In this document: positions 3,959-40,717 of the stretch, piece after piece
How positions within the stretch are numbered: the first letter of the stretch is position 1
Layout of the letters: each line of letters opens with the position of its first letter
Assembly: GCA_022568135.1 (NCBI GenBank)
Contig: JADFFQ010000013.1
Span: 1-64,000 of the forward strand
Reading direction: 5' to 3'
DNA from: Planctomycetota bacterium
GTDB taxonomy: Bacteria; Planctomycetota; Phycisphaerae; Phycisphaerales; SM1A02
Length of the DNA stretch: 64,000 nt
The notes under the pieces: model-generated
What the model was told of the DNA's origin: nothing
Database searches by the model: none
The model's input: the letters and a program-made list of their open reading frames with translations, nothing else
Translations under genes and position numbers: made by a program

Positions 3959-4005
3959 ACCACCCCGCGGCGCCCAAGCCCGGCTCGATTGTACCGCCAG
4001 TTGGC

Positions 4006-4452: not shown

Positions 4453-4500
4453 CGCTGGGCTACCCAGAATGGGATGCGGATCGGAGACATCGATTCGCGA

Positions 4501-5667: not shown

Positions 5668-5809
5668 CCCGCAACCCTCCGTGCAATGATGATGTCCGCC
5701 ACGTCTCCAATCGCGGCCTCGTCCAAAAGCCCGAGGCGACGCTGGGCGGACGCCACACAATCGTTCATAATGCTCGCGATCACGCAACCCCCACAGGGAG
5801 AATAACCTG

Positions 5810-6793
5810 ATGATTACTCGCCGAGACTTCTGTCTGGCCCTGGGGGCCGTGGCCGCCACAGGCTCCCGACCTCGGCGGTCCTGGGGCACGCTGCTGAGGA
5901 CGCAGGCTCCGTTCGATTCTCAAGAGATACGCGGCAAGGGCGCGGTGATTCTCGGCGACGGCGGTCGCGTGCTGGTGATGCCCACCGGCGACGGCCCGGT
6001 GATGATCGATGCGAAGTTTTTCCACACGGCCGATGATCTGTACGAGCAGGTCCTTCAGCACGTACCAACTCCGCCGACGCTATTGATCAACACCCACCAT
6101 CACCGCGACCATACCGGCGGCAACTGGAAATTCTCCCCCCATGGCCAGTTGATCGCGCATAAGAACCTGGCGCCGCGGCTGGCCGGGAATCTGGCCCAAT
6201 ACCGCCGGACTGCCCAGCAGGAGCTTGATCGACTTCGACAATCCGGGGCGGGTGAAACCCGGATCAACTCCGCCATCGCACGACTTGCGCATGCCGAACG
6301 TCTGGCCGTGGACGATTTTGCCCCCGACCGCCTCTGCTCGGCTGAGCTGAACGTCAGCCCCGGCGGGCTGGAGCTGTACATTCGACACTACGGCCCGGGT
6401 CACACCGACAACGACGTCGTCGTGTTCCTCCCCAAACTCAATATCCTGCACATGGGCGATCTGCTGTTCCACCAGCTGCACCCGTTCATCGACAAAGCGG
6501 CAGGGGCCACGACCGTCGGCTGGCAGCGCTCGGTCCGCGAGGCGATGAAGCTGTGCAATGATGAGACGATCATCATCCCCGGCCACGGCAAGGTCACCGA
6601 CCGGACCGCCCTGCCCAAGCAGATCGAGTATTTCGATCAACTGCGCCAGATCGTCTCCAAGGCGATGGGCGAGGGCAAGAGCCGTGACGAGATCACCACA
6701 ATGAAGCCGGACGTGTTCAAGGGCCGCGGCCTTGACCGGCTGCAATCCCACGCGCTGGGGGTGGTGTACGACGAATTGCACGCAGGGAAGTGA
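5810..6793 (+). CDS. Exported metallo-beta-lactamase-fold hydrolase
   Basis: 327 residues. The N-terminus MITRRDFCLALGAVAA fits a twin-arginine signal (TRRDF), suggesting folded export. The metal ligands of the MBL fold are all visible: INTHHHRDHTGG (about residue 100), GPGHTDND, HMGDLLFHQLHP and IIPGHGKVTD. Such exported enzymes include polyketide-cyclase-like, quinoprotein-relay (SoxH-type) and B3-like hydrolases; the substrate cannot be decided. The gene is divergent from the oxidoreductase at 5667 with a 142-base gap that could hold both promoters. Confidence 0.87.
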   Translation: MITRRDFCLALGAVAATGSRPRRSWGTLLRTQAPFDSQEIRGKGAVILGDGGRVLVMPTGDGPVMIDAKFFHTADDLYEQVLQHVPTPPTLLINTHHHRDHTGGNWKFSPHGQLIAHKNLAPRLAGNLAQYRRTAQQELDRLRQSGAGETRINSAIARLAHAERLAVDDFAPDRLCSAELNVSPGGLELYIRHYGPGHTDNDVVVFLPKLNILHMGDLLFHQLHPFIDKAAGATTVGWQRSVREAMKLCNDETIIIPGHGKVTDRTALPKQIEYFDQLRQIVSKAMGEGKSRDEITTMKPDVFKGRGLDRLQSHALGVVYDELHAGK

Positions 6794-6813
6794 TCTCCTT
6801 TGCGCAACGGTTC

Positions 6814-6902
6814 AATAGCCGCGTGGCGGAAGCCCGCGGGACATGTTCGTCAGGGGCGGGCGCGACGCCGCGCACGCCCTCGCCCTTCCGGGCGAGGCTA
6901 TT
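6814..6902. repeat. BIME-like pair of palindromic repeats bounded by AATAGCC/GGCTATT
   Basis: An inverted pair: aatagccgcgtggcggaagc (start 6814) and, at the other end, a palindrome of the form cgcccttccgggcgag followed by ggctatt (6877-6902). Both half elements recur elsewhere: the first, inverted, at 16476-16501 (24 of 26 identical by eye) and the second at 15958-15984 and 16531-16557. It lies between the convergent ends of the MBL hydrolase and gcvPB, where it could also act as a bidirectional transcript end. Confidence 0.6.
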
Positions 6903-6946
6903 TCATATGCAATACGACTGCCCCGCTCACCGCTAACCGCTGACCA

Positions 6947-8482
6947 CTATCCATCCCACACCAGCACCGGGTTGCGGGCGGCGGCGACCTCGTCGGCCCG
7001 GCGGATTGGGGCGTCCGTCGGCGCTTCAGCCAGCGCCTTCGGATCACGCTCGATCTCCTGGGCGATCTGCAACATCACATCCACAAAGTGGTCAAGCGTG
7101 CGCTTGGATTCTGTATCGGTCGGTTCGACCATGAGACAGTCGCGCAGCGGCCAGTGCATCGTCGGCGGATGTATGTCATAGTCAACCATCCGCTTGGCGA
7201 TGTCGTTGAGCGAGACACCTTTCCCCAGCAAGCTCTTGGGCACAGTGACGAACTCGTGAGCACAGAAGCGGCCCTTTTGGGGATCGAAATAGGGCATCTC
7301 GTAGACATTGCACAGTCGGGCAGCCAGGTAATTCGCGCTGAGCACAGCTTTCTCCGCCACGTTGCGCAGCCCATCGGGCCCGCAGGCGGCGATATACGCC
7401 CAGCACCGCACCAGCACGCCGAATTGACTGGAAAAGCTACGCACCTTGCCAATGGATTTTGGACGGTCACGATCGAAGTAGAACGAACCGTCCTCGGCCA
7501 TCATCACCTGGGGCCCCGGCAGATACGGAGCGAGCTTGTCGCCGACGGCGATCGGTCCGGCCCCGGGACCGCCGCAGCCGTGGGGCGTCGAGAAGGTCTT
7601 GTGCGTGTTGAAGTGCATCACATCGGTGCCGAACTCCCCCGGGCGGGTCTTGCCAAGGATCGCGTTCATGTTGGCGCCGTCGAGATAGAGCAGGGCCCCG
7701 GCGTCGTGCATGATGTCGGCCGCCTCGCAGATCTTGGCGTCGAACAACCCGGCGGTGTTGGGGTTGGTGATCATGAACGCCGCAATGGTGTTCGCCCCAT
7801 GCTCATTGACGAGTCGGCGAAGGTCATCCAGGTCGGTGTACCCGTGGGCCGTCTTCACCGTGACCGCGTGGCAGGCGCACATCGTGCAACTTGCCGGGTT
7901 GGTGCCGTGGGCGCTGTCGGGCACGAGCACAATGTGGCGCTGGGGCTGGCCGATATCTTTGAAATACGCCCGGATGACCTTCAGCCCGGTGAACTCGCCA
8001 TGCGCACCCGCGGCCGGCTGGAGCGACACCTCGTCAAGCCCGGCGATCTCCTGGAGGAAGCACCGCGTTTCGTAGAGCAGCCGCAACGCCCCCTGGATCT
8101 GGTCGTCGTCCTGGAGCGGATGGAGTTGCGCAAATCCATCCAATGCCGCCGCCCACTCGTTGATCCGAGGATTGTGCTTCATCGTGCACGACCCGAGCGG
8201 ATAGAAATTGCCATCGACCGAGAAGTTGCGTTGCGAAAGATGCGTGTAGTGGGTCATCACATCGTGCTGGCCGACTTCGGGCAATTCAACAGGCGCACCG
8301 ATCAACTCCGGCGGTAGATCGACCCGCGGCACGTCCAGCGGCGGCAGATCGACCGCGCGCTGCCCCGGCACCGACTTCTCAAAGATCACCGGCTCCACCG
8401 GCCGATCGCCCCGTGCCAGGGGGCGAATCGACCTGGTGCCTGCTCTGGTTTTCTTGGGCCTGGTTTCCATGACGCTGGTCAC
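6947..8482 (-). CDS. gcvPB: Glycine dehydrogenase (decarboxylating) subunit 2
   Basis: C-terminal half of the P-protein of the glycine cleavage system, pairing with GcvPA to decarboxylate glycine on PLP and load H-protein lipoate. The PLP lysine lies in FNTHKTFSTPHGCGGPG; other signatures are NFSVDGNFYPLGSCTMKHNPR, PDSAHGTNPAS and MHWPLRDCLMVEPTDTESK. At 511 residues it is slightly longer than the usual 480-490 because of a basic N-terminal extension (METRPKKTRAGTRSIRP). The GTG at 8482 overlaps the gcvPA stop by four bases (GTGA); an ATG at 8470 is the alternative. gcvT and gcvH are not in the window. Confidence 0.95.
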   Translation of the reverse strand: MTSVMETRPKKTRAGTRSIRPLARGDRPVEPVIFEKSVPGQRAVDLPPLDVPRVDLPPELIGAPVELPEVGQHDVMTHYTHLSQRNFSVDGNFYPLGSCTMKHNPRINEWAAALDGFAQLHPLQDDDQIQGALRLLYETRCFLQEIAGLDEVSLQPAAGAHGEFTGLKVIRAYFKDIGQPQRHIVLVPDSAHGTNPASCTMCACHAVTVKTAHGYTDLDDLRRLVNEHGANTIAAFMITNPNTAGLFDAKICEAADIMHDAGALLYLDGANMNAILGKTRPGEFGTDVMHFNTHKTFSTPHGCGGPGAGPIAVGDKLAPYLPGPQVMMAEDGSFYFDRDRPKSIGKVRSFSSQFGVLVRCWAYIAACGPDGLRNVAEKAVLSANYLAARLCNVYEMPYFDPQKGRFCAHEFVTVPKSLLGKGVSLNDIAKRMVDYDIHPPTMHWPLRDCLMVEPTDTESKRTLDHFVDVMLQIAQEIERDPKALAEAPTDAPIRRADEVAAARNPVLVWDG

Positions 8483-9834
8483 GTGGCGAACTCCTCCAGC
8501 ACCTCGACCAGGGCATCCATTTCGTGCTTGGTACGCTGTTCGGTGACGGCGATGAGGAGGTCATTCTCGTCGCCGATGCGTCCCATTCGCCGGCCGTGGG
8601 GCGCGATCCCGGCCAGGATGCGCCGGCGCTTGGCCGCTTCGATGATCTGGGTGGCCGGCTTCGGGCACGTGACGCAGAACTCGTCGAAGAACGGCCCGTC
8701 GAACTTCAGCGCGTAGCCGTCCAGGGCCGTGATCTGCTCGGCCAGGTAGTGAGCCTTGTGATAGCACTGCTGGGCCATCTCCCGCAGGCCGTGTTTGCCC
8801 ATCACCGTCATGAACATCGTCGCCCGCAGCGCAAGCAGGCCCTGGTTGGTGCAGATGTTGGACGTAGCCTTGGCGCCGCGGATGTGCTGTTCGCGGGTCT
8901 GAAGTGTCAGGCAATAGGCCGCCCGGCCCTCGGCATCGGTCGTTCGTCCAATCAGCCGGCCGGGCATCTTCCGCATGAACTGATCTGCGGCAGCGAACAG
9001 GCCGAGGTAGGGCCCGCCCAGGCTCAGCGGCACGCCGAGCGGCTGGCCTTCACCGGCCGCGATGTCCGCAGAGCACTCGCCGGGCTTGCGGAGCAACGCA
9101 CAGGCAATCGGATTGAAGACCGCGATCGCACAGACGCCGTCTCGCTCATGGGCCGCGCCGAAACAGCCGTCCCAATCCTCGATCAGTCCCCAGACGTTGG
9201 GCGATTGGATCACGACACATGCGGCTTCGTCGTCGAGCTCCCGGCGCACCGTCTGGGCCGCGATGCGACCGCCTTCCGCAGGCAGCTCGACCAAATCCCC
9301 AGGCAGGTCTTGCAGGTATGTTCGCAGTACGGCCCGGTAGTCCGGATGAAGCGTCGAGGCGACGAGGACGCGCCGTTTGCCCGAATGATGCAGCGCCATC
9401 AGCACCGCCTCGGCGACTGCGGTAGCGCCCTCGTAGAGGCTCGCGTTGGCGATGTCCAAACCGGTCAGCCGGGCCACCTGGGTCTGAAACTCAAAGAACG
9501 CCTGGAGACTGCCTTGGGACGCCTCGGCCTGGTAGGGCGTGTAGGCGGTCAGGAACTCGCCGCGACCGGCCAACTGATCGATAAGCACCGGGCAGAAATG
9601 GTCATACGCCCCGCCGCCCATGAAGCAGACCATGTCGTGCGGGCCGTGGTTGTGGGCGGCCATCTCCGCCAGCTCTCGCTTCAGCTGGAGTTCCGACATG
9701 GCCGGGGGCAGATCGAGCGTGTCGTTGAATCGGATCTCTTTGGGAATCGCGGTGAAAAGCTGCTCGATGCCTTCGGCCCCGATCACCTCGAGCATCGCGG
9801 ACTGCTCATCGGGTGTGATCTGTGTGTAATCCAT
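8479..9834 (-). CDS. gcvPA: Glycine dehydrogenase (decarboxylating) subunit 1
   Basis: N-terminal half of the split P-protein, 451 residues as usual for the family. Visible motifs: YTQITPDEQSAMLEVIG at the N-terminus, MVCFMGGGAYDHFCPVLID, YTPYQAEASQGSLQAFFEFQ, the repeat SLYEGATAVAEA, and PLGVPLSLGGPYLGLFAA. The ATG at 9834 immediately precedes the conserved DYTQITPDE start, so the longer reading is rejected. It is translationally coupled to gcvPB. The 273-base upstream gap shared with the divergent peptidase gene shows no convincing glycine riboswitch. Confidence 0.95.
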   Translation of the reverse strand: MDYTQITPDEQSAMLEVIGAEGIEQLFTAIPKEIRFNDTLDLPPAMSELQLKRELAEMAAHNHGPHDMVCFMGGGAYDHFCPVLIDQLAGRGEFLTAYTPYQAEASQGSLQAFFEFQTQVARLTGLDIANASLYEGATAVAEAVLMALHHSGKRRVLVASTLHPDYRAVLRTYLQDLPGDLVELPAEGGRIAAQTVRRELDDEAACVVIQSPNVWGLIEDWDGCFGAAHERDGVCAIAVFNPIACALLRKPGECSADIAAGEGQPLGVPLSLGGPYLGLFAAADQFMRKMPGRLIGRTTDAEGRAAYCLTLQTREQHIRGAKATSNICTNQGLLALRATMFMTVMGKHGLREMAQQCYHKAHYLAEQITALDGYALKFDGPFFDEFCVTCPKPATQIIEAAKRRRILAGIAPHGRRMGRIGDENDLLIAVTEQRTKHEMDALVEVLEEFAT

Positions 9835-10107
9835 AGTGCGTGCGAGATCTGGCAGGGCTGGGGCGAGAGAGGGCGGCAACCGCTTCGGCAGCGCCTAGAC
9901 TCGACGGCCGAACAACATCGCCGCAGACTGCGAAGCGGCAACTATATTCGCTGCCCGCGCCGCGAGCAACGCAGCCGACACGTGATGCCGGCGAAGTGTG
10001 CCCGCACGTCGCTCCTCGGATCGCATATCGGCCGGGTTTCCTGCTACAGTCGTGATCAGGCCGGCAAGCTTCGACCGTTTGTTGCACCTGCGAAAGGACG
10101 GTCTCCC

Positions 10108-12168
10108 ATGGCGGACAATCATCGTCTCGTCCGATTCGTTGCCCTGACGGCGGCCGTGGTCTGGTTCGGTTTGACCGTTCGGGCCCAGGCAGGTCAGCCC
10201 GCCGAGCCGGCCGGCGCGGGCGAAACTGAATCGACGGCTCGGATCGTTGATGGTCCGGCCAATATCCGAAGCTTCGCCCCCGAGGAGTCGGCGGTCACGG
10301 TCAACGCCGCCGAGGTCAACCTGCGGCAGGTGTTTGAGGATCTCGGGCCGGATGCCACCCTTTGGTACCAGCACGTGCAGACGCTGGCCAACCCGTTCTT
10401 CGAGGGTCGGGCGCCGGGCACGCGCGGCGTTGAATTGGCGGCTCAATACATCGAGTTCTACTTCCGCACCTACGGGCTGGAACCTGCGTTCGGGGCCGGC
10501 GGGGAGCAACTCGGCGGCCCATCTGACGCCGCCCGGCAGAGCTATCGCCAGCCGTTTGACTTCAGCGTACGTGGCCGGCGCGTGCAGGTGGAGATCACCG
10601 AGGCGGTGCTGTCGATCGACGGCCCAGAGCTGGCTGATGGCGAGGATTTCATCGTGCTTGGGAATTCCGGCAGCGGCGCGGTCACGGCACCGCTGAGCTT
10701 CGTGGGATATGGCATCGACGAAGGACCCGATGAGTACACCAGCTTCGACGACGACACCGACCTGAGCGGACGCGTTGCGCTGCTGCTTCGCTACGAACCG
10801 CTCGATGAAGACGGCGCCAGCCGGTGGAGCACCGAGCGCTTCAGCCGGCAGGCGGGGATCGCCCGCAAGATGCGAAGTGTGGTTGAGCGCGGCGCCGCGG
10901 GCATCCTGCTGGTCAATCCGCCCGGGGCGATCCACGGCCGTGAGGGATTGGAGCCGATCGGCCGCAGCCGCGGGTTCGGCCCCGGCCTTGACATTCCGGC
11001 GATGCAGATCACGCCCCACGTCGCCGGCCGGCTGCTGCGGGACGCTGACGCGCTCGGCCGGGACCTGATGACGTGGCGGCGACTGGCCGATACCGGCGAG
11101 GTCCAGACCGTCCCTCTCAGTGACCTCGTACAGGTGACGATGGCGACCGCGGTTCAGCGCAAACGCGACCGCCGCGAGTCCGAAGCTGAGAACGTCGGAG
11201 GCATCCTTCCGGGCAAAGGCGATCTCGCCGATCAGTGGATCATCATCGGGGCTCATTTCGATCATGTCGGTGACGGATCACTGGGCGGAGTAAACCCGCG
11301 CAACCGCGGGCGACTTCACCCCGGTGCCGATGACAACGCCTCCGGAACGGCCGGCGTGCTGATTCTGGCCAGGAAGCTCTCCGAGGCCTACGCCGACGCT
11401 CCCGACGATGCAAACTTGCGTTCGGTGCTCTTCCTCACCTTCGGGGCCGAGGAGATGGGCCTGCACGGCTCACGCTATTTCGCAAACAATCCGACGATCC
11501 CCATCGAGAACATCGGCATTCTGCTCAACATGGACATGATCGGGCGGCTGCGCAGCCAGAACCTGTCGGTGATGGGAACGGAGACTGCTGCGGGTCTTCC
11601 AGAAATCCTTCAACCGCACTTTGAGGCCAGCGGATTGACGATCTCGGCCAATCCTGGCGGTAGCGGGCAGTCCGACGATGCGAGCTTCGACCGTGTTGAG
11701 GTGCCCGCGTTGCATTTCTTCACGGGCATGCACCCGGAGTACACTTCGCCGAGCGACCAGGCCTACACGGTCAACCCGGCGGGCGCCAGCGAGGTCCTCG
11801 ATCTGATGTTCGACATCGCCCAGGATCTCGCCACCCGGCCGGACCAGCTGGTCTACCAGGAGCCACCCGCCGGCCGCGGCCGGGATCGCGGCTACGCCTC
11901 CGTCCGGCTGGGCATTCGGCCCGGTATGGGCGAGGAGGCCCAGACCGGAGTGCTGGTCGACGCGGTCTCGCAAGGCACCAGCGCGGCCGATGCGGGAATG
12001 ATCCAAGGCGACATCATCGTGGCCTGGGGCGACCGGCCGATCGAAGGTCTGGGCGATCTGTTCGACCAGCTTCAGGCGCACAAGCCGGGCGACCAGGTGA
12101 AGATCACCGTTCTTCGAGACGCAAAGCGAGTCGTGCTCGACGTCACGTTGAAGTCGAGCGACGGATAG
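10108..12168 (+). CDS. Secreted M28-family peptidase with C-terminal PDZ domain
   Basis: 686 residues. A signal peptide (LVRFVALTAAVVWFGLTVRAQA) is followed by an M28 N-terminal region and a PA-like insertion (about 180-330, ending GILLVNPPGA...IPAMQIT). The di-zinc aminopeptidase core then shows AHFDHVG, HPGADDNASGTAG, FGAEEMGLHGS, NMDMIGR and a late His (LHFFTGMHPEYTSPSDQ). The last 95 residues (LGIRPGMG...DVTLKSSDG) are a PDZ domain, probably for docking peptides or partners. M28-PDZ fusions are common in planctomycetes and acidobacteria. ATG at 10108 opens the signal peptide; the very long open frame before it is antisense shadow of gcvPAB. Confidence 0.9.
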   Translation: MADNHRLVRFVALTAAVVWFGLTVRAQAGQPAEPAGAGETESTARIVDGPANIRSFAPEESAVTVNAAEVNLRQVFEDLGPDATLWYQHVQTLANPFFEGRAPGTRGVELAAQYIEFYFRTYGLEPAFGAGGEQLGGPSDAARQSYRQPFDFSVRGRRVQVEITEAVLSIDGPELADGEDFIVLGNSGSGAVTAPLSFVGYGIDEGPDEYTSFDDDTDLSGRVALLLRYEPLDEDGASRWSTERFSRQAGIARKMRSVVERGAAGILLVNPPGAIHGREGLEPIGRSRGFGPGLDIPAMQITPHVAGRLLRDADALGRDLMTWRRLADTGEVQTVPLSDLVQVTMATAVQRKRDRRESEAENVGGILPGKGDLADQWIIIGAHFDHVGDGSLGGVNPRNRGRLHPGADDNASGTAGVLILARKLSEAYADAPDDANLRSVLFLTFGAEEMGLHGSRYFANNPTIPIENIGILLNMDMIGRLRSQNLSVMGTETAAGLPEILQPHFEASGLTISANPGGSGQSDDASFDRVEVPALHFFTGMHPEYTSPSDQAYTVNPAGASEVLDLMFDIAQDLATRPDQLVYQEPPAGRGRDRGYASVRLGIRPGMGEEAQTGVLVDAVSQGTSAADAGMIQGDIIVAWGDRPIEGLGDLFDQLQAHKPGDQVKITVLRDAKRVVLDVTLKSSDG

Positions 12169-12205
12169 CCCCTGGGCAGCCGGCGAACGAGCGATTCCCC
12201 AAACA

Positions 12206-12233
12206 CACAGCGGGCCCGGTTGGACCCGCTGTG
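12206..12233. terminator. Hairpin between the M28 peptidase gene and rnpB
   Basis: cacagcggg (12206-12214) pairs exactly with cccgctgtg (12225-12233) over a ten-base loop. It lies after the peptidase stop (plus strand) and just past the 3' end of rnpB (minus strand), so it can end both transcripts. On the minus strand it is followed by GTTTGGGG rather than a true T run, so its intrinsic strength is uncertain. Confidence 0.5.
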
Positions 12234-12242
12234 CCCGGTCGT

Positions 12243-12668
12243 GTGTGGACATAAGCCGAATTCTGTTCCCGCCTGCGGCGGGCGGCGATCATTCGTCTAG
12301 GGCCGCCGTTGCCGGCGACCTCAAGCACGCTACCCGTCCTCATGCCACGGACCATGGTTCCCGAAAGCGAACTTCCGGTGGAGGACTGCTTGCGCTTGCA
12401 CCCGGTGGGGTTTGCCGTGCCCCGGCTGTCACCAGCCGAGCGGTGCGCTCTTACCGCACCATTTCACCCTTACCTCCCCGCAATGAGCTGAGGCGCCGCG
12501 AGAAACACGACGACACAGAACTTCCGGGGGTCGGCGGTGTGTTTTCTGTGGCACTTTCCCTAGCTCCGCGACCAAGAGCCGGTGGGCGTTACCCACCACC
12601 GTGTCCTGCGGTGTTCGGACTTTCCTCCGCCGCCGGTTACCCCGCGACGGCGATCGTCTGTCCACGCA
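12243..12668 (-). ncRNA. rnpB: RNase P RNA, bacterial type A
   Basis: Catalytic RNA that matures tRNA 5' ends. Read on the minus strand, the hallmark blocks are in order: GAGGAAAGTCCGAACACC (complement of about 12608-12627), GGGTAACGCCCACC soon after, GGTGCGGTAAGAGCGCACCG (complement of 12441-12460), and at the 3' end ACAGAATTCGGCTTATG (complement of about 12250-12266). The first and last bases pair as helix P1 (GTGGACAG with TGTCCAC), which sets ends near 12668 and 12243 within a few bases. The length of about 426 nt fits type A with extended helices. Confidence 0.96.
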
Positions 12669-12731
12669 GTCATTGTAGCGGTCAGCGATCAACTGTCAGC
12701 CACCAGTGGAAAATCAATGGGGGAGAGTTGG

Positions 12732-12767
12732 AAGCTGAACGCTGATAGCTGAATGCTGATGGCTCCC
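12732..12767. repeat. AGCTGAANGCTGAT-type short tandem repeats
   Basis: Between rnpB and the next gene, words of the form agctgaacgctgat, agctgaatgctgat follow each other, with a related gcggtcagcgatcaactgtcag just before (about 12680-12700). This looks like dispersed low-complexity intergenic repeat material. A similar cgctaaccgctgacc stretch occurs near 6929-6944. No function is evident. Confidence 0.4.
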
Positions 12768-12781
12768 GTACACTACCCGCC

Positions 12782-13738
12782 ATGTCATCCACAGTGCGGC
12801 TTATCGCCTGGATCGAGCCCGGGCAGGAAGAGCTCATTCGAGATGCCGTGAGGTGCGGCGGATTCGAGCTGGCCGCGGTGGGATCATACGACACGGCTGC
12901 GGGGGTCAGCCTCAGCGAATCGCTCGAAACGAATCGAGTCGCCACCTTGCGCGAGGCAGTCCTCCAGGACGATGCGGGCCTGCTGTGGCTGGCGGCGGGC
13001 CGGCGGATCGAACCGGATGAACGGCGACTCATTCGTGAGGCCGGCTTGCTTACCATTACCAGCGAACCAATGCCCGGTTCCGTTGCCGAGGTGCTGTCCG
13101 ATCCCCGTGAGGCCGTCACCGCCCGATTCGTGCCGCTGATGCGACAAAGCCCCGGCTATCGCGCCGCCCGCGAGGTGTTTGAGCAATTCGGTCAACGGCA
13201 GTGCGTCAACATCTTTCTGGGCAGCGCTCCGGGCCAGGGCTCGCTGTTTGGGCGCCTCTTCGACGCGATGGACCTGGCCCAGACCCTGTGCGGATCAATC
13301 GAGATGCTGGATGCAGCACTGTGCGGGGAGATGTCCGGCGTCCCCGAGACGCTTGGCGGGCTTCACGGCCATCTCACCTTGAACATGCGGTTCTCGGACA
13401 ACCGTTGCGCGTGCGCGGCTGTGAGCGATCAGGCCGGCGGATGGTTTCGGGCGATCACGCTCCTGGGCGAAGGCGGCTGCGTCCGGATTGAAGACGATGG
13501 TTTCAACTGGACCGCACCTGATGGCCACACGATCGATTCACACCGGGAGCCGCAGTTGCTCAGTCCCGGTGAGCTGGTTGCGATGCAAGTTCGGCGCCTG
13601 CTGGACCATCTCGATGCGACCGATCCGCCGCCGGACGAGGCCGGCATCTTGACCTTGTGTGAAGCGGCCCGGCTCAGTTGCCGCACCGGCCAGGGCGAAG
13701 TCCCTCGCAAGATGTTGGAGATGCTCAGGCGGCCATAG
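12782..13738 (+). CDS. Divergent Gfo/Idh/MocA-like protein (tentative)
   Basis: 318 residues, weakly recognised. The middle of the N-terminal half (DAGLLWLAAGRRIEPDERRLIREAGLLTITSEPMPG) resembles the end of an oxidoreductase Rossmann domain, where a substrate is 'seen' and then an EKP-like motif follows; here it is SEPMPG. The part from about 195 (LGGLHGHLTLNMRFSDNRCA...GEGGCVRIEDDGFNW) resembles the C-terminal substrate domain. The dinucleotide-binding GxGxxG is missing at the N-terminus, so a catalytically dead or structural paralogue is possible. The start ATG at 12782 is the first in frame. Its last 14 bases overlap the convergent DUF418 gene. Confidence 0.6.
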   Translation: MSSTVRLIAWIEPGQEELIRDAVRCGGFELAAVGSYDTAAGVSLSESLETNRVATLREAVLQDDAGLLWLAAGRRIEPDERRLIREAGLLTITSEPMPGSVAEVLSDPREAVTARFVPLMRQSPGYRAAREVFEQFGQRQCVNIFLGSAPGQGSLFGRLFDAMDLAQTLCGSIEMLDAALCGEMSGVPETLGGLHGHLTLNMRFSDNRCACAAVSDQAGGWFRAITLLGEGGCVRIEDDGFNWTAPDGHTIDSHREPQLLSPGELVAMQVRRLLDHLDATDPPPDEAGILTLCEAARLSCRTGQGEVPRKMLEMLRRP

Positions 13739-15209
13739 GCGAAGTCGTCTCCCTGCGTCGCAGCACCGGCTGCGGCTTGAGGTAGGTCAGCGACCGCCAC
13801 AGCCACTCGAACGGGCCGATCGTGAACACGCGCAGCCACAGGACGCTCAGCACCATCTGCACCGCGTAGATTCCTACGACCAGCGCGAGCTGCTGGGGCC
13901 GTGACACCTCGTTGAACCACCCCAAGCCCCACCAGTACATGAGGTATGTGGCGATGATCGTCTGAAGAAGGTAGTTGCTCAGAGCGGTCCGCCCGACACA
14001 CGAGAACGCGTAGGTGAGCCATCGCAGCAACCCGGCTTGAACAATCAAGGTGAGCGCGCCGACATAGCCGAGGCACAGCGCCAGGCTGGAGATGTTGTGA
14101 ATCACTTCGGCGCCGGCCTGCGTCCAGCCGAGTTCGTAGCCCGAATGGTAGTACGACCACACCAGCCACAGCTCGCCGGGTACGCCGATCGTGAGCCCCA
14201 AGATACAAAACGCCCAATGCCAACGCCGCCGTTCAGCGGCAAAGAAGTTGAGCTTCATCAACGCCATGCCCAGCAGGAACATTCCAGCCACTCGGAAGCC
14301 GAAGCCGCTCAGGATACCCACGAACACAAGCATCACCCCGAACGTGATCGCGCGCATCAGCAGCGTGACCGACATCGGCCCCTCTTTGTAAGCGATGACT
14401 CCCGCTTCGACCCATGCGGGGTCGCCGGGCTGCCATGTTGACGCCTCTAGCGCAGCGACAAACCGATCCCACCGGTCGTCGGCCTCGTCTTCGAGTGAAT
14501 CATCGGCTGCCGCATCCGAGGCGGGTGATTCAACCGCGAGCTCGGTTTCGTCGGATGGCTCCGCAGATTCAACCGCTTCGACCTCCGCCGCATCTTGAGA
14601 CGGTGGCTGGAAGATCACACCGAGCGCCGCAGACCCTCCAGCAAAGAGCACCGAAAGGGCAATCGCTCCGGCCGCCAGCGCCATCAGCGCCGTGGGCGCC
14701 AGCTTTCGCAGCAGCAGCACCAGCAAGGCGACAATTGAATAGATGAACAGAATGTCGCCGTACCACAGCAGCAAGCCGTGGGCCAAGCCGAACAGCATCA
14801 ACAAAACAGTTCGGCGAAGGTAGACCGGCACGAACGGCCGCCCTCGCTGTTCGGCTCGGCCCATCTGGATGACCAGCCCCACGCCAAACAGTAGCGAGAA
14901 CAGCGACACGAACTTGTATTCGAAGATGGCCCGAACGATCGCGTGGCTGATCTGATCGGCTGGCGGCACATCCGCGATGGATCCATGGTCGATTATCTTC
15001 GCCAACGGCATGGCGAAGAAGGCGATGTTGACCATGAAGATGCCGAAGATCGCGAAGCCGCGCAGCACATCGAGTGTGACAATGCGCTCCGGCTCCTGTA
15101 CGGGTCCGAGCGGTCGAGGGCTGACGGCGGGTGGTGGCGGCTCGGTCGGCGGGGTCAAGGCGCCGGCCGTCTGCCCGACTTGGTTATCTGGGTCCAGCTC
15201 GTCGTTCAC
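13725..15209 (-). CDS. DUF418-family polytopic membrane protein
   Basis: 494 residues. The N-terminal part has the family opening VTLDVLRGFAIFGIFMVNI and several helices, with the basic FVPVYLRRTVLLMLFGLAHGLL. The C-terminal DUF418 domain holds AFSCVGRTALSNYLLQT and ends in GPFEWLWRSLTY. Between the two lies an acidic, low-complexity stretch (about residues 215-275, many Glu, Asp, Ala and Ser), unusual for the family and probably an exposed loop. Relatives (YeiB-type) are poorly characterised acyltransferase-3-like membrane proteins. GTG at 15209 has an AGGAGGAG upstream; no close ATG fits. Confidence 0.85.
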   Translation of the reverse strand: MNDELDPDNQVGQTAGALTPPTEPPPPAVSPRPLGPVQEPERIVTLDVLRGFAIFGIFMVNIAFFAMPLAKIIDHGSIADVPPADQISHAIVRAIFEYKFVSLFSLLFGVGLVIQMGRAEQRGRPFVPVYLRRTVLLMLFGLAHGLLLWYGDILFIYSIVALLVLLLRKLAPTALMALAAGAIALSVLFAGGSAALGVIFQPPSQDAAEVEAVESAEPSDETELAVESPASDAAADDSLEDEADDRWDRFVAALEASTWQPGDPAWVEAGVIAYKEGPMSVTLLMRAITFGVMLVFVGILSGFGFRVAGMFLLGMALMKLNFFAAERRRWHWAFCILGLTIGVPGELWLVWSYYHSGYELGWTQAGAEVIHNISSLALCLGYVGALTLIVQAGLLRWLTYAFSCVGRTALSNYLLQTIIATYLMYWWGLGWFNEVSRPQQLALVVGIYAVQMVLSVLWLRVFTIGPFEWLWRSLTYLKPQPVLRRRETTSPMAA

Positions 15210-33906: not shown

Positions 33907-33931
33907 TGATGGCCGGACGCCGTTTGAACGC

Positions 33932-33947
33932 CCCCGGAAGGCCGGGG
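33932..33947 (+). terminator. Short GC hairpin after nuoN
   Basis: ccccgg, aagg, ccgggg, 26 bases past the nuoN stop. There is no T run, so it is a weak candidate for the end of the nuo transcript. It also marks the left border of the accessory island. Confidence 0.3.
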
Positions 33948-34005
33948 ACGTTGTAGGATGAGTACTTGACCCACTCGATGATGGCGCGGGTGCCGGTGAC
34001 CAGCT

Positions 34006-34863
34006 ATGAAGAAGACTCCCGTCCCTCTTTCCGTCCCCATAACGAACCGATCAACTCGCATCATGCCATTGCTGCGTTGGATAGGCGGCAAGCAGCACCT
34101 CGTCCGGAGGTTGTTGCCCTTCGTTCCGGCTGACTACAAGAAGCGCTGCTACCGAGAGCCGTTTCTTGGCGCGGCATCCATGTTCCTTGCTCTGCGGCCA
34201 GAGCGTGCATACCTGGCAGACGCCAATCAACATCTGATCCAATGCTACGAGGCTGTCCGCGACACTCACGACCGTGTTTCTGCGTACCTCCGCGGTCACG
34301 CCGCCAAGGATTGCTCGGACCACTACTATGCGGTGCGCGAGGCCTACAATCGGCGGTCTCCGTCGGCCGCCCAAGCTGCCCGGTTCCTTTACTTGAACAG
34401 GACCTGCTTCAACGGGGTTTTTCGGGTCAACACTCGCGGGCAGTTCAACGTTCCCTACGGCTACAAAGACCATCCGATCTTTCCTGATCGGGATGTCCTT
34501 GCGACGGTAAGCCAAGCTCTCACCAATGCAGAGCTGGCTGCTGTCGATTATCAGGATTCGCTAGCAGCCGGCGAACCGGGAGACTTTTTCTACCTCGATC
34601 CTCCGTACCCCCCGCTGAACGGGACGTCCTATTTCACTCACTATACCAAGGACAGGTTTGATGCTGACGATCAGAGAGCTCTGGCTGAATGGGTGTGGGA
34701 GTTGGACGACCGGGGATGTTTGTTCATGATGTCCAATGCTGACACTCGCATGATTCGGAGGCTATACCGCAACTTTCACGTCACGCGGTTACCAGTGATC
34801 CGCTACGTTACCTGCAAAGCCACTAAGCATCGCGTCGGCGAACTTGTGATCACCAATTACTGA
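34006..34863 (+). CDS. D12-class N6-adenine DNA methyltransferase (Dam-like)
   Basis: 285 residues that would methylate adenine using S-adenosylmethionine. Motif I follows LLRWIGGKQHLVRRLLPFVP and reads EPFLGAASMFLAL; motif IV is YLDPPYPPL (DPPY); LNRTCFNGVFRVNTRGQFNVPYG is the D12-class substrate block. Most family members start near MPLLRWIGGK, so the ATG at 34063 is as likely as the one at 34006. The gene is the first of three with 8- and 5-base gaps. No cognate classical restriction enzyme is adjacent, but a PD-(D/E)XK protein lies at 37915. Confidence 0.9.
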   Translation: MKKTPVPLSVPITNRSTRIMPLLRWIGGKQHLVRRLLPFVPADYKKRCYREPFLGAASMFLALRPERAYLADANQHLIQCYEAVRDTHDRVSAYLRGHAAKDCSDHYYAVREAYNRRSPSAAQAARFLYLNRTCFNGVFRVNTRGQFNVPYGYKDHPIFPDRDVLATVSQALTNAELAAVDYQDSLAAGEPGDFFYLDPPYPPLNGTSYFTHYTKDRFDADDQRALAEWVWELDDRGCLFMMSNADTRMIRRLYRNFHVTRLPVIRYVTCKATKHRVGELVITNY

Positions 34864-34871
34864 GGTAGCTG

Positions 34872-35411
34872 ATGACTGCTCTCGACACCACCGAACCGGC
34901 TCTGCGATGGCGTTACAAACACGAGCTGCACAGAACAGCGGCGTGGCTGTTCACGCATCTCATTTGCGCTCTGATGCCACTCTGGGGAAGCTGGCTACTG
35001 CTCAAGCTTGGCAAGCACAGCACCGGCCTGTCCGACTATGTAAGCCATGGCGAGTTCTGCCTCTATGCGGCGGCGCTGGCGGGGACAACTCTTTTTGTGA
35101 TCCTGCGCGAGGAACGTCACCCACTTCGCGGCCGGTTGTGGACGGGTCTAATAGCTGCGGCTCTGCTTATGTCCTCCGCGCTTGTCTTCGCCGGCGCGTT
35201 TACGCTGAATTACACGAGTGGGGCCAGCATCCCGCTAGAACTGGACATTGCGTTTCTCACGACAATATCGATCGTTCTTTATTTCGCCGCACTCGTGACG
35301 GCTGTGATAACGCTCTTTCTTGAGGGGCTAAGCCAGTCATACGATCCGCGCAAGGCCCAGATGAGGGAGCAGGGAGCTTTGACGCAGGCGTTTCGCTCCA
35401 TTAAAGACTGA
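34872..35411 (+). CDS. Four-helix membrane protein in the methylase/DGQHR cassette
   Basis: 179 residues, not recognised. Helices at about 22-46 (RTAAWLFTHLICALMPLWGSWLLL), 57-77 (GEFCLYAAALAGTTLFVIL), 86-110 (LWTGLIAAALLMSSALVFAGAF) and 122-148 (LDIAFLTTISIVLYFAALVTAVITLFL); both termini are polar and by the positive-inside pattern probably cytoplasmic. GAGGTAGCTG precedes the ATG. Its position, eight bases after the methylase and five before the DGQHR gene, suggests a joint function; a membrane effector or signal partner would be usual in defence cassettes, but this is inference. Confidence 0.75.
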   Translation: MTALDTTEPALRWRYKHELHRTAAWLFTHLICALMPLWGSWLLLKLGKHSTGLSDYVSHGEFCLYAAALAGTTLFVILREERHPLRGRLWTGLIAAALLMSSALVFAGAFTLNYTSGASIPLELDIAFLTTISIVLYFAALVTAVITLFLEGLSQSYDPRKAQMREQGALTQAFRSIKD

Positions 35412-35416
35412 GTCAC

Positions 35417-36508
35417 ATGGCACAAGACTTGATCAGATTCCGGTGCATTCCGGTCCAGCAACCGCTCGGGACGTTCTATATTGGGGCAATCGCGGCGCGC
35501 GACGTACTCGCCATCGCATACGCCGATATTCGGCGCATAAAGGAACGCGATATCGAGAAGATTGTCGGGATCCAGCGCGAATTGGTGCTCCGACGCGTGC
35601 GCGAACTCAAGCAGTACGTCCAGAACATAGACGCGACGTTCCCGACAAGTGTAATCCTTGCAGTATCGGGCGAACATGCCGAGTACGTGGAAGAGCGTAA
35701 GGAGATGAGAATAACACGACAAGAGGATATCGCCAAGATCATCGACGGTCAACACCGTATCGCTGGCCTGGAGGACTTCGATGAAACATTCGAGCTCAAC
35801 GTAACGATCTTCATAGACATGGACATTCAAGACCAGGCTATGACCTTCGCGACGATCAACCTAGCGCAGACAAAAGTCAGCAAGTCCCTGGTTTATGACC
35901 TCTACGCGTTTCAGAAGGCACGCAGCCCGCAGAAGACGTGCCACAACATCGCACGTCTCCTCAATAGTGAATCAGCTAGCCCACTCAAATCGAGAATCAA
36001 GATCCTCGGAAAGGCAACGGGAGAACCCTTCGAGTTCATCACGCAGGCGACCTTCGTGACGGCGCTCCTGAAGTACATCTCCAGCGACGCAATGAGGGAC
36101 CGCGACCTGTTGAAGCGCGGGAAGCGGGTGCCTCCGGCGTTGGGTGCTGATGCCACCAAATTTGTATTCCGGGACCTCTTCATAGACAAGAGGGATGCCG
36201 AGATCGCCAAAATCATCTGGAATTACTTCGACGCGGTGGCACAACGCTGGCCGACGGCATGGAACTCGCGAGAGCAGGGCGACATGCTGAATCGAACACA
36301 GGGTTTCTCAGCACTCATGAGATTCTTGGGTCCGGTGTATCGCGGCAGCGCGGACTCGCGAGGGCGGCTTTCGAGTAAGAGCGTCCTTGGCGTGCTGAAG
36401 AAGGTCAAGCTTCGCGATTCAGACTTCACGAAGGAGAACTACCTGCCGGGCACAACTGGTGAGACTAAGTTGTTTCGCCACTTGCGCGAGCAATCGGGCC
36501 TGGAATGA
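35417..36508 (+). CDS. DGQHR-domain protein (DndB/DpdB-related)
   Basis: 363 residues. The defining motif is KIIDGQHRIAGLEDF near residue 113, preceded by TSVILAVSGEH and followed by LNVTIFIDMDIQDQAMTFATINLAQTKVSKSLVYDLY, the pattern of DGQHR proteins such as DndB (regulator of DNA phosphorothioation) and DpdB (7-deazaguanine DNA modification), whose fold relates to the ParB/Srx superfamily. The C-terminal half is alpha-helical and unassigned. No dndCDE or dpd genes are visible, so the partner here seems to be the methylase and membrane protein. Base use is visibly AT-richer than in nuo. Confidence 0.85.
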   Translation: MAQDLIRFRCIPVQQPLGTFYIGAIAARDVLAIAYADIRRIKERDIEKIVGIQRELVLRRVRELKQYVQNIDATFPTSVILAVSGEHAEYVEERKEMRITRQEDIAKIIDGQHRIAGLEDFDETFELNVTIFIDMDIQDQAMTFATINLAQTKVSKSLVYDLYAFQKARSPQKTCHNIARLLNSESASPLKSRIKILGKATGEPFEFITQATFVTALLKYISSDAMRDRDLLKRGKRVPPALGADATKFVFRDLFIDKRDAEIAKIIWNYFDAVAQRWPTAWNSREQGDMLNRTQGFSALMRFLGPVYRGSADSRGRLSSKSVLGVLKKVKLRDSDFTKENYLPGTTGETKLFRHLREQSGLE

Positions 36509-36794
36509 TGCTACAAACCGGCGGTCAGAGTGCACACGTCACAATTCTCGAGGGCGGGCAGTGCCCACCAATCGATTCAGGCGCCCCCGCAACCTATGCC
36601 CCAATGGTCGGGCTGCCGACGGCGCCGTGGCACTCATCTCGCAAGGGTCGTGACCTCAAGATTGGCCACGAAAGACCCGACATCCGAAGAGGGGTCGTCT
36701 GTGGTGGCCGGGCCCGGCTTTCTCTCGAATTGGGCGGGCGGGCGAGTTGCACCAGCCACGGTTGGAGCGAGGGCTCCGCGTCGTAGGAGTGACC
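36509..36794. other. Gene-free gap between cassette and PilZ gene
   Basis: 286 bases. Open frames here have no protein-like composition. gggcgggcagtgcccacc (about 36553-36570) is a palindrome-like word of the dispersed intergenic type. The PilZ ribosome site (AGGAG at 36785) ends the gap. No tRNA or attachment site is seen. Confidence 0.4.
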
Positions 36795-37508
36795 ATGCAA
36801 GGGCGAGCCTGGACCAGTATCGGACTCGAAAAGAGCAACGCTCTACTCGTGAGCCTGCTGTTGGCCGACGAACCGGACGTGTCGGGATTGCTCCTGGATC
36901 TCAGCGCCGACGAAGCGAGCGTGCGCTTCTCTTTGACTCGCTGCCCGGATCTCGCGATCCGTCAAGAGGTGGAGCTTCGGCTTACCTCCGACCGGCTTGA
37001 CAGGCCGCTTCTGGCGCGCGCCAGGGTGACGCGCCGGACCGAGGAGCCCGACTCCCGCAGCTATGGATTTCGGTTCACGGATTACAGCGACTTCCAGCAT
37101 CTTTCTCCGGATATCCGCCGGCTCTTGAACCGGCGCGGGTCGAATCGGGTCCAGCCGAATCCTGAAATGCCCGTCGAGGTCACCCTGGGCGCGGGTCGGG
37201 ACGGCCAGCGATATCCAGTTCGGCTGGTTGACATCTCGGCGACCGGGGCAAAGTTCCGTGTCTCGGGGGAGGTGGAGTCAGCGCTCCTCAAGACCAGGCG
37301 CATCGCCATCTCGATGTCGTTTCCAGATTGCGGGCATCCCGTAGATTTGTACGGGATCATCTGCCACCGCGGCATCGCCGGCACGGAGATAGATTACGGC
37401 ATCGCCTTCGAGTCGGAATCTGAGTCCGGGCCTCGCCACCAGGACGCCATCACTGCCTACGTGACAAAGCGCCGCGGGGAGATCATGCAGCGATCAACGG
37501 CCGCGTAG
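36795..37508 (+). CDS. PilZ-domain protein
   Basis: 237 residues. The second half carries the c-di-GMP-binding PilZ pattern: NRRGSNRVQPN (an RxxxR-like element, here divergent) and then VRLVDISATGAKFRVSG (the D/NxSxxG box reads DISATG). The N-terminal half has a similar layout (LLLDLSADEASVRFSL), perhaps a second, degenerate PilZ or YcgR-N-like domain. If it binds c-di-GMP it could steer surface or secretion behaviour. ATG at 36795 is six bases after AGGAG. It lies between the two accessory modules and may be a resident gene that they bracket. Confidence 0.7.
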   Translation: MQGRAWTSIGLEKSNALLVSLLLADEPDVSGLLLDLSADEASVRFSLTRCPDLAIRQEVELRLTSDRLDRPLLARARVTRRTEEPDSRSYGFRFTDYSDFQHLSPDIRRLLNRRGSNRVQPNPEMPVEVTLGAGRDGQRYPVRLVDISATGAKFRVSGEVESALLKTRRIAISMSFPDCGHPVDLYGIICHRGIAGTEIDYGIAFESESESGPRHQDAITAYVTKRRGEIMQRSTAA

Positions 37509-37550
37509 GAGCCGGGCCCGTTCTACACGTGACCTCGATGAGGCGGCGCA

Positions 37551-37642
37551 GCTGACCAAGCGGCCCGACTGGGCCTCCAGGCCGCCGTCTTGGGGCAGGA
37601 CTCGGCCTGTCACCCCCGGACCTCCGGCACCGTTGATTCCGG
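37551..37642. repeat. Direct repeat DR1 flanking the nuclease-like gene
   Basis: About 92 bases, repeated at 39541-39632 in the same orientation, with only about ten differences; the core ttggggcaggactcggcctg is identical. The copies are 1990 bases apart and enclose 37915-39351. See the second copy. Confidence 0.75.
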
Positions 37643-37914
37643 TCGCGATCTGGCCACGACGAGGCGGAATCCGCTTGATCCGCTTGATTTTCAGCCAGCC
37701 CCGAGGGATGATCGCTATCCGGTGGGGGGCCGTCCTCGGCCCGCCGGAATGCCGAGCGCGTCGTTAGCTCTTTCGATTGAGCGTGGCGATATCCCCGCTA
37801 TGTAGTATTCCGCAGAGCATGGCCGACGACCCATAGTCAACGGAAACCTGTTCGATCAACTGTTGGGCGAGAGAAGAGAAACCGCTTTCATCTTCGACGA
37901 CGAAGGGCGCACAC
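37643..37914. other. Gene-free leader of the nuclease-like gene
   Basis: Together with DR1 this forms a gap of 406 bases after the PilZ gene. Just before the start the DNA becomes AT-richer (gagaagagaaaccgctttca). No clear promoter pair, but GAAGGGCGC sits close to the ATG. Nothing else is supported. Confidence 0.35.
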
Positions 37915-39351
37915 ATGACGAATGAACTCGACACCTCTTCATGGGAATCAGCACGGTTGATTCCTGTTTCTGGCATTCGTGACGCCAAGGAACAAGAACG
38001 CCGAGCCACCTCTGCCCTTCTCGCGGTATTGTCATCTGTTGATGAGTTTGGTTTAGCGTTCGCAAAACCATTTGGCGCCATGAAGGGCCAATTTGAAACG
38101 TATATTGAGATCCCGTTTGAACTGGGCGATGGACGCAGTGTTCGGCCAGATGGACTCATCCATACCATCCGCGGCAAACGCACATGGACCGCTCTAGTTG
38201 AAGTAAAGACGGGAAGCAATGAACTCAATCGCGAGCAGATCGAGGTGTACTTGGACCTGGCGAAAGAGCAAGGTTTCGATTGTGTCATCACGGTCTCAAA
38301 TCAGATCGCCAGAATACCCGGTGAACATCCGGTTGACGTAGACAAGCGTAAACTGAGAAAAGTAGCCCTCCACCATTTGTCATGGTCACGAGTCTTGACA
38401 GAAGCCGTTCTACAGAAGACCCACCGCGGGGTAGCAGATCCAGATCAAGCGTGGATTCTCGGCGAGTTGATTCGGTACTTGGAGCACCCCAATGCCGGTG
38501 CCGTGGATTTCGGCGACATGGGCGAGCATTGGGTTGGAGTACGCGATGCAGTGAAGCACGGCACTCTTCGTCATTCAGACAAAAAGGCCGTCGAAATAGC
38601 GGGAAAATGGGAGGAACTCGTGTCGTTTGTGGCTTTGCGCATGGGGCGGCAATTGGGCACGGATGTTCAAGAAGTGCTCTCCGCAAAGGAAAGAAAAGAC
38701 ATTTCCGTTCGCATAGCGAACATCGTTGATGCGATGGCGACGCGAGGCCTGATGCTTGGAGCAATCCGCATACCCAACACCGTGGGTGACATCGCTCTCA
38801 CGGCAGATCTGCGTGCCCAACAGATTGTCGTGTCGCTCTCATTAGATGCACCCAAAGCAGGAAGAACCACGACGAGAATCAACTGGCTCTTGCGACAGTT
38901 GAAGCCAAGTGCACCCGACGTCCGACTTGACAGCTGGGGAATGCGATCCAGGTCATCTATGTCCGACCTGCTTGCTAATGTCCGGAACAAGCCATCACTT
39001 CTGGTTCCGCTCGACAATCGCGAACTCGTCTCATTTACAGTGTCGCTCACACGGCCAATGGGCCTGAAACGTTCTGTCGGCAAACGTTCGTTCATTGATT
39101 CAATTCTTGATACGTTGGATGAATTCTACGGGGACGTTGTTCAGCATTTGCAAGAGTGGCAACCCGATGCACCGAAGCTACAAAAGAGCGCAGTAGAGGA
39201 GACAGATCCTCCAGCAGGAAAGCAGGCAGAACCCACCGTCTTTCCAGACGCGCAATCAAAGCCGAACCAGACGAACGAGGAAGATCGAGGAGGAACGAGG
39301 GTCAGTAACGATGATCAGCCGGCTATTGCGAGTGCCACGCGCACTGCTTGA
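37915..39351 (+). CDS. PD-(D/E)XK nuclease-like protein
   Basis: 478 residues. The region 75-130 has the restriction-endonuclease-like pattern: RPDGLIHTIRGKRTWTALVEVK, that is an Asp after a Pro-less RPD turn and E-V-K (the E/DxK half), then an acidic helix (NREQIEVYLDLAKEQGFDCVITVSNQ). The large C-terminal part is unassigned and the last 60 residues are disordered (PPAGKQAEPTVFPDAQSKP). Known relatives are uncharacterised. Base use is AT-richer than neighbours, and the gene is bracketed by a 92-base direct repeat, so acquisition by transfer is likely. A role as a solitary nuclease, with or without the methylase cassette, is inference. ATG at 37915. Confidence 0.72.
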   Translation: MTNELDTSSWESARLIPVSGIRDAKEQERRATSALLAVLSSVDEFGLAFAKPFGAMKGQFETYIEIPFELGDGRSVRPDGLIHTIRGKRTWTALVEVKTGSNELNREQIEVYLDLAKEQGFDCVITVSNQIARIPGEHPVDVDKRKLRKVALHHLSWSRVLTEAVLQKTHRGVADPDQAWILGELIRYLEHPNAGAVDFGDMGEHWVGVRDAVKHGTLRHSDKKAVEIAGKWEELVSFVALRMGRQLGTDVQEVLSAKERKDISVRIANIVDAMATRGLMLGAIRIPNTVGDIALTADLRAQQIVVSLSLDAPKAGRTTTRINWLLRQLKPSAPDVRLDSWGMRSRSSMSDLLANVRNKPSLLVPLDNRELVSFTVSLTRPMGLKRSVGKRSFIDSILDTLDEFYGDVVQHLQEWQPDAPKLQKSAVEETDPPAGKQAEPTVFPDAQSKPNQTNEEDRGGTRVSNDDQPAIASATRTA

Positions 39352-39865
39352 AGCAAGTAATCAGCGATGCGCCATTGGCGCGACAGCAACCGGTAGCTGT
39401 GGCCCCGTTGAAAAAGCGGCCACCTCGCCGGGATTGTGATCGTGCGATGTCGAATGCGGCTCTCCAGGCTGGTTGGCTGGCAGTGTTCGGCGGCGTCGCA
39501 GTAGTCTTTCAACAGCCCCGCTGTCCCTAGATTTCCCACCCTTACCCAAGCGGTCCGACAGGGTCTCCAGGCCGCCATCTTGGGGCAGGACTCGGCCTGT
39601 CACCCCCGGACCGCCGGCGCCGTCGATTCCGGCCAGAAGCAAGCGATTGGAACTTCGGTTTCCGGGGGGGTGTTACACTCGTGCTCGGAACGCTCGGCGG
39701 TGGAGCCGGGCCAAGGTCAAATGGGAAATGTGGGATAAGAATGATTCGCGCGCGTTGTTGGATTCACCCCCCGCGAGTGCATCCGTGTGGGAACCGCGCA
39801 CTGCCTTGCGAGGTTGTTTGAAGCGATGCGCTTAGAGCGATGCCCCAGGATTCTCTTGGGCGATA
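39352..39865. other. Gene-free region right of the nuclease-like gene
   Basis: 514 bases including DR2 (39541-39632). No frame has credible protein character. A homopolymer gggggggtg lies at about 39664. The stretch after 39700 (gatgcccc aggattctcttggg) has a small inverted repeat near 39841-39860 next to the convergent end of the following gene, a possible transcript end. Confidence 0.4.
39541..39632. repeat. Direct repeat DR2 flanking the nuclease-like gene
   Basis: Second copy of the repeat at 37551-37642: the words ctccaggccgcc, ttggggcaggactcggcctg, tcacccccggacc and gattccgg occur in the same order and spacing in both. Either a duplication made on insertion of the intervening 1.9 kb, or two members of a dispersed family that framed its entry by recombination. 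Confidence 0.75.
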
Positions 39866-40603
39866 CTACCCAGAGCCGGCCGCTTCGCCGTCACCATCGG
39901 CGGCGGTCCTGCGTATGGCGCTGTGCTGAAGGACGAAGCCGGTCACCGCGGCCACGCCCACCAACAGCGGCAGAAGCAGTTGGTTTGTCGAGAGGCTGGT
40001 CCGCACGGTGCCCTCCCATGCCGGCACGTGCAGCAGCAGGGTGATCGCGCCCAGGACCGCCATCGCCGCTCCGCCGATCGAGGTGAACAGGACGATGACC
40101 GCCCGGAACATGATGAAGGCGGCGAGCCCCACAGTAATGAAGCCCATGATCGCGCCCACCATGTGGGAATCGGGCGTGCTGCTGAAGGCGGACCAGGCGT
40201 TGGCCCCGATGAACGCGCCGGTCAGGCCGCCGAAGACGGCCACCGCCAGTCGCAGTAGGGGGGTGGCGATGACTGCGCACAGCAGGCCAAGCGCAGCCAT
40301 GACGATGCGGGATTCGCCCATCTGGCTGCTCAACAGTTGCCCAAGCCCCAGCCCACCCAAGAATGCGCAGATGACGATCACCCATTTGTGCCAGCGATAG
40401 CCGTTGAGCACACACAATGCTCCGACGATGACCAGGGCCGACGCCCATACGATGTGCATATTTGCCAGTGCTGCCAGCAACTCGTCGGGGCGGTTGAGGA
40501 TGTCCATCCGCGGTATAAGGGAGGTGATCACCTCATAGGGGCTGGCATCGGTTGGAGTGACGGCGGATGTTTCTTGGGCAAGAAGCAGAGCGTGGCTGGT
40601 CAT
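39866..40603 (-). CDS. Gly/Ala-rich polytopic membrane protein
   Basis: 245 residues. After a polar N-terminus (about 60 residues, possibly outside) come seven hydrophobic segments: VWASALVIVGALCVLNGY, WVIVICAFLGGLGLGQLL, IVMAALGLLCAVIATPLLRLAVAVFGGLTGAFIGANAW (two), MVGAIMGFITVGLAAFIMF, VIVLFTSIGGAAMAVLGAITLLL and LLPLLVGVAAVTGFVL. This resembles the TMEM198/DUF4203-like fold. ATG at 40603. It forms a likely pair with the similar gene upstream at 41626. Confidence 0.68.
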   Translation of the reverse strand: MTSHALLLAQETSAVTPTDASPYEVITSLIPRMDILNRPDELLAALANMHIVWASALVIVGALCVLNGYRWHKWVIVICAFLGGLGLGQLLSSQMGESRIVMAALGLLCAVIATPLLRLAVAVFGGLTGAFIGANAWSAFSSTPDSHMVGAIMGFITVGLAAFIMFRAVIVLFTSIGGAAMAVLGAITLLLHVPAWEGTVRTSLSTNQLLLPLLVGVAAVTGFVLQHSAIRRTAADGDGEAAGSG

Positions 40604-40717
40604 TGGAAGCCCTCGATATGCTGGGGGTCGAGAAATAGACGAAGTTGCCTTGCCGGCCGGCGGCCGGGGCGGCGACAACCATGGCGGACGATGGTGGCTG
40701 GGCCGGCCGCAGGTTGT

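Follow-up and report, generated by a model that had tools for sequence, protein, structure and literature searches.

A gene for a predicted PD-(D/E)XK nuclease probably came to lie between a conserved PilZ-domain gene and a membrane-protein gene through recombination at a resident copy of R1, a dispersed repeat of which one copy is located on each side of the nuclease gene. The stretch analysed, called the window, is 64,000 nucleotides long and belongs to a draft genome (G000, 3.35 Mb in 87 contigs). The following features make up the locus.

36747–37508, plus strand: PilZ-domain gene (PF07238), the conserved left flank, with 92–95% identity in the same genus
37556–37642, plus strand: left repeat copy, an internal R1 fragment without the R1 right end
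37725–37862, plus strand: R2, another dispersed repeat, located immediately ahead of the nuclease gene
37915–39351, plus strand: gene for the predicted PD-(D/E)XK nuclease (478 aa, no TerD domain), the sole large ORF between the repeats
39399–39519, plus strand: non-coding stretch, 75–77% alike to G003:C16 and G001:C45
39535–39739, plus strand: right repeat copy, R1 including its conserved right end; 39546–39632 is the part common with the left copy
39866–40678, minus strand: right-flank gene, conserved in the genus, for a membrane protein that is TM7S3/TM198-like with a score below threshold

The two repeat copies are real and direct, with the spacing of 1990 given in the original prediction, and their ungapped match (37556–37642 versus 39546–39632) covers 87 nt and not 92, the first five bases matching poorly. 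Within this match 80 of the 87 bases are identical (92%, seven differences). The pair is beyond chance, the two copies scoring E-values of 1e-46 and 4e-30 in a search of the whole G000 genome. A 17-nt insert is present in both of them and absent from the other R1 matches in G000, as well as from all the other R1 loci compared across genomes. Because of this shared insert, the two copies appear to be sisters and not two old independent copies. The left copy is mosaic, resembling G001 in its left part and the right copy in its right part: the left flank and a ACTGGGCC variant are in common with the single R1 copy of the same-genus genome G001, and the remainder, including the insert, is in common with the right copy. 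Recombination together with gene conversion at R1 would fit such a mosaic. The presence of the insert in both copies is not explained by one simple crossover. There were no terminal inverted repeats at the two copies and no transposase ORF was recognised among the ORFs within the bracket; the view that the repeats are not a target-site duplication was supported. An island at a tRNA site was rejected, as the gene search detected neither a tRNA nor a tmRNA anywhere in the window. No Rfam RNA was found near the bracketed site; elsewhere in the window, an RNase P RNA class A gene is located at 12238–12668 on the minus strand.

R1 is a dispersed family which includes both window copies. A 100-base query detected 14 places in G000 (the two window copies and 12 others). 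With a longer member as the query, at least 30 matches were obtained in this genome, corresponding to at least about 25 distinct places counted by hand; this is a lower bound since 40 of the 65 candidates were scored. In the four genomes of the genus, the longer query produced 30 (G000), 33, 13 and 18 matches. Outside the genus, copies were fewer in the family and order, where 15 of the 61 genomes searched have a match. Traces elsewhere in the class were weaker, a 71-base core being present in 30 genomes of a sample of 298. Several contigs of these class genomes start approximately 95 bases ahead of the core, as expected for a multi-copy repeat. The exact core was absent from viral contigs, and R1 was absent from plasmids. 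Five pairs of R1 copies, all in the same orientation, lie within 2.5 kb of each other in G000, where about 0.5 pairs were expected from a hand estimate, and the bracket in the window is one instance of this wider pattern. R1 occurs dozens of times across the genus and is not peculiar to the insertion in the window, which matches the wording under which the original prediction would give up a link between the bracket and insertion.

R1 is intergenic and is often situated directly ahead of genes. On the right, R1 stops sharply at a conserved end (...AAATGGGAAATGTCGG, in the fuller form ...GCTCGGCGGTGGAGCCGGGCGAAGGTCAAATGGGAAATGTCGG), with divergence beyond, and its left end is variable. The right ends read ATGTCGG. 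The codon that follows ATG-GGA-AAT-GTC-GGN is a stop in 19 of 45 copies, compared to 0–3 at most other offsets and nine at the next base. This excess could correspond to a tiny leader ORF, or to the repeat running on for a few bases. Of 40 copies examined, 29 have their longest downstream ORF in the direction of the repeat and 27 have upstream ORFs in that direction too, indicating co-directional neighbourhoods and not, by itself, a leader function. A structured RNA was rejected as the identity of R1, with no relevant Rfam match even at E 5. RNAalifold returned one weak stem only, and the pairing of a hairpin with a 7-bp stem motif equalled that of column shuffles (0.932 versus 0.932), with no covariation support. 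A scan for consensus (sigma-70) promoters from 37400 to 39950 found none in R1 or R2; a promoter role of either repeat was an impression by eye, and we make no claim of one. REPIN/RAYT elements, MITEs and mobile promoters are present in tens of non-coding intergenic copies per genome, and R1 is alike in this respect. It differs from them in that no terminal inverted repeats and no hairpin covariation were seen, and in its right end, which is fixed and includes a short start-codon stretch. In one R1 copy (L093, G000:C2), a palindromic MITE-like element of 74 bases, bounded by GGGTGGCTG...CAGCCACCC, is inserted at 2974–3047, and related sequence interrupts further R1 copies. No paper on an R1-like repeat was found in an open-access literature search of partial coverage.

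The same-genus genomes G001, G002 and G003 have the PilZ gene in the same position, and it is collinear with a nuoN-like gene in relatives. In G003, the PilZ and right-flank membrane-protein genes are on one contig around the interval. No nuclease gene was seen in the interval to the right of PilZ in these three genomes, the intervals of G001 and G002 being cut by contig ends. On contig G001:C222, PilZ is followed by the same 47-base flank and then by one R1 copy. The left part of this copy matches the window left copy (flank and ACTGGGCC), and its right half continues like the window right copy, sharing CAGAAGCAAGCG...GTTACACTCG. A hydrolase ORF comes next, then the contig end, with no membrane-protein gene there. 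A relative with a single repeat and no nuclease gene, which had been suggested as a check, thus exists in G001, but another gene follows the repeat and the allele is not a clean empty site. The gene in the interval is different in each genome: a hydrolase ORF in G001, an ankyrin-like ORF in G002 and a glyoxalase-like ORF in G003, each near R1 and each named by eye from its translation. In G000, the hydrolase gene of G001 and its R1 leader occupy a different locus (C70), and G003 has the gene in yet another arrangement. Single genes beside R1 have thus moved within the genus. On the other side of PilZ, a lower-GC block at 33925–36611 comprises a Dam-family adenine methyltransferase gene, a small membrane-type ORF and a DGQHR (DndB/DpdB-like) gene. 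This block is absent at the same place in G001, G002 and G003, in which the nuoN-like and PilZ genes are adjacent, and neither R1 nor a target duplication was seen at its ends.

The second repeat, R2 (approximately 130–140 nt), precedes unrelated genes at G000:C48, G000:C2 and G003:C10, and also at G015:C27. Its homology stops abruptly at ...CAATCAACTGTT; the end reads GTT followed by variable bases, and by eye no matching RYYYAAC is present at the left end. R2 together with a gene for a protein starting MGNIS recurs in G000:C2, G003:C10 and G015:C27 (three genomes, two genera). The region 3301–14478 of G015:C27 (L117), in another genus of the family, consists mostly of co-directional unrelated genes, most of them preceded by R1 or R2.

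In the nuclease protein, residues E65, P78-D79, E96-x-K98 and Q108xxxY112 are invariant among eight aligned proteins, down to about 29–37% identity. The order E...PD...ExK...QxxxY is the same as in the PD-(D/E)XK superfamily (VRR-Nuc, TnsA-N or Mrr-like), from which the protein differs by about 300 further residues with no fold assigned. The VRR_NUC profile (PF08774) matched at 16 bits, below the Pfam cut-off of 23.8. Weak similarity to VRR_NUC was present in all seven homologues scanned (best E 0.003), and TnsA, Tox-REase-7 and Mrr gave weak profile matches in some homologues; all four are PD-(D/E)XK families. Because of the invariant motif residues and the convergent weak matches, the protein is likely a nuclease, in agreement with the call made earlier, and it would be expected to cleave DNA. 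Two AlphaFold2 runs (the protein alone, and with four sequences) yielded models of low confidence (pLDDT 35 and 36) with the secondary structure order alpha-beta-beta-beta-alpha-beta. A fold search with these models, which are too poor for it to carry meaning, gave no match at E ≤ 0.001, and a profile search of the PDB gave no nuclease match.

The gene has spread horizontally and is sporadic in relatives. Homologues were found in 4 of 101 genomes (its own included). Identities of 71–88% were reached by homologues in a Phycisphaerales MAG, a Planctomycetota MAG, a Blastopirellula MAG and a verrucomicrobial MAG. The GC content is 53% at 38001–39000, compared to about 60–65% over most of the window. 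The foreign origin assigned to the gene was supported. Proteins encoded on Rhodococcus and Streptomyces plasmids share 36–43% identity over 85–91% of the window protein and have the same catalytic residues. Actinobacterial forms, annotated "TerD family protein", are TerD–nuclease fusions with an N-terminal TerD domain (PF02342), whereas the planctomycete forms are without TerD. No such fusion was recognised from the titles and abstracts returned by a literature search of partial coverage. On the Rhodococcus plasmid pRZP3 (L108, 4245–11142), the fusion gene is followed by a 1-kb gap and then by hypothetical, ThiF-family, Mov34/JAB-family and DUF6602 genes. The closest homologue (L028, G062:C83, 4166–6562) is split into two overlapping frames and adjoins a REP-associated-type transposase gene, named by eye, on the opposite strand. 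Carriage of the gene by viruses was rejected, no copy being present in phage or viral-contig collections. There was no positive evidence for the proposed mobile defence cargo: the protein had no match among the PADLOC defence models at E ≤ 0.1, and the homologues sit alone in varied contexts. Any defence or stress role would be putative.

We propose that a horizontally spread single gene entered a site carrying a resident R1. An R1 copy on the incoming DNA, or on other chromosomal DNA, would have recombined with the R1 at the site, leaving the gene inserted with R1 on each side. Such an insertion would be possible because R1 copies are many and mostly in the same direction as genes, and recombination between the two flanking copies could delete the gene again. 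The single-R1 allele of G001 and the presence of a different single gene in each genome of the genus support insertion or swapping at R1; the crossover itself, its direction and its timing are what we infer from these arrangements. The R1 copies look like recombination sites for gene swapping and not like the ends of a classical transposon, and homologous recombination at the repeat, as put forward in the original prediction, is supported as the best mechanism. Several points weigh on the other side. R1 is common, and bracketing alone is a weak indication. The G001 allele is not cleanly empty, and loss of the gene in the other genomes is possible. For the 17-nt insert to be in both copies, a simple single crossover would have to be accompanied by gene conversion, or the incoming DNA would have had to carry two copies of R1. 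R1 is not beside the nuclease homologues in G062 or G003, so it did not accompany the gene over long distances. MAG contigs also break at repeats, which makes some of the adjacencies uncertain.

The same arrangement would arise if two R1 copies had pre-existed and the gene had come between them by another route, such as illegitimate recombination, a decayed insertion element or the R2 leader. R1 is indeed both dispersed and clustered; R2, or the DNA around it, may be a mobile boundary, located directly ahead of the nuclease gene here and of other genes elsewhere. The long-range homology to G062 covers 37840–39271 only. We nevertheless consider this route rather unlikely, since the private insert and the flanks, reciprocal relative to G001, favour a duplication at the locus. 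An assembly artefact at a multi-copy repeat might be suspected in a draft of 87 contigs when contigs of other genomes end at R1, but the two copies are not identical (7 differences in 87 positions), their flanks differ, and PilZ and the membrane-protein gene flank the interval on one G003 contig too, making an artefact highly improbable. A composite transposon or an IS-borne unit, with the repeats as its ends, would explain why a foreign gene has a long direct repeat on either side. It is scarcely credible for repeats that are non-coding and dispersed, with no terminal inverted repeat and no recognised transposase ORF in the bracket.

An integron-like cassette array, in which R1 and R2 would be recombination sites and the nuclease gene a cassette moved by a site-specific recombinase, is very unlikely. 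The likeness lies in co-directional single genes parted by related repeats (mostly preceded by R1 or R2, for example in G015:C27), in the same gene recurring in different arrays, as the R2–MGNIS unit does, and in the sharp right ends of both repeats. However, no integron integrase above the cut-off of 265 bits was found in the drafts G000, G001, G002, G003, G015, G032 and G062, in a search whose controls contained no integron. The attC ends RYYYAAC...GTTRRRY are not matched by R1 or R2; R1 ends in ATGTCGG and not GTTRRRY, its left ends vary, and its copies are scattered over many contigs. A broader reading, which we regard as speculative and unlikely, would make R1 and R2 parts of a so far undescribed gene-cassette system in this bacterial class, one that works without an integrase and in which unrelated single genes, the nuclease gene among them, swap loci and genera with a leader. 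The repeats would then be expression leaders whose fixed 3' end marks the insertion points, possibly with a five-codon M-G-N-V-G mini-ORF. This reading rests on draft genomes.

The predicted nuclease family is widely transferred and has no assigned function; its relatives on actinobacterial plasmids are fused to TerD. If R1 copies do serve as shared recombination sites, as we propose for the nuclease gene, they would provide a testable route by which single genes are gained and swapped in this little-studied group of bacteria without a recognised integrase or transposase.
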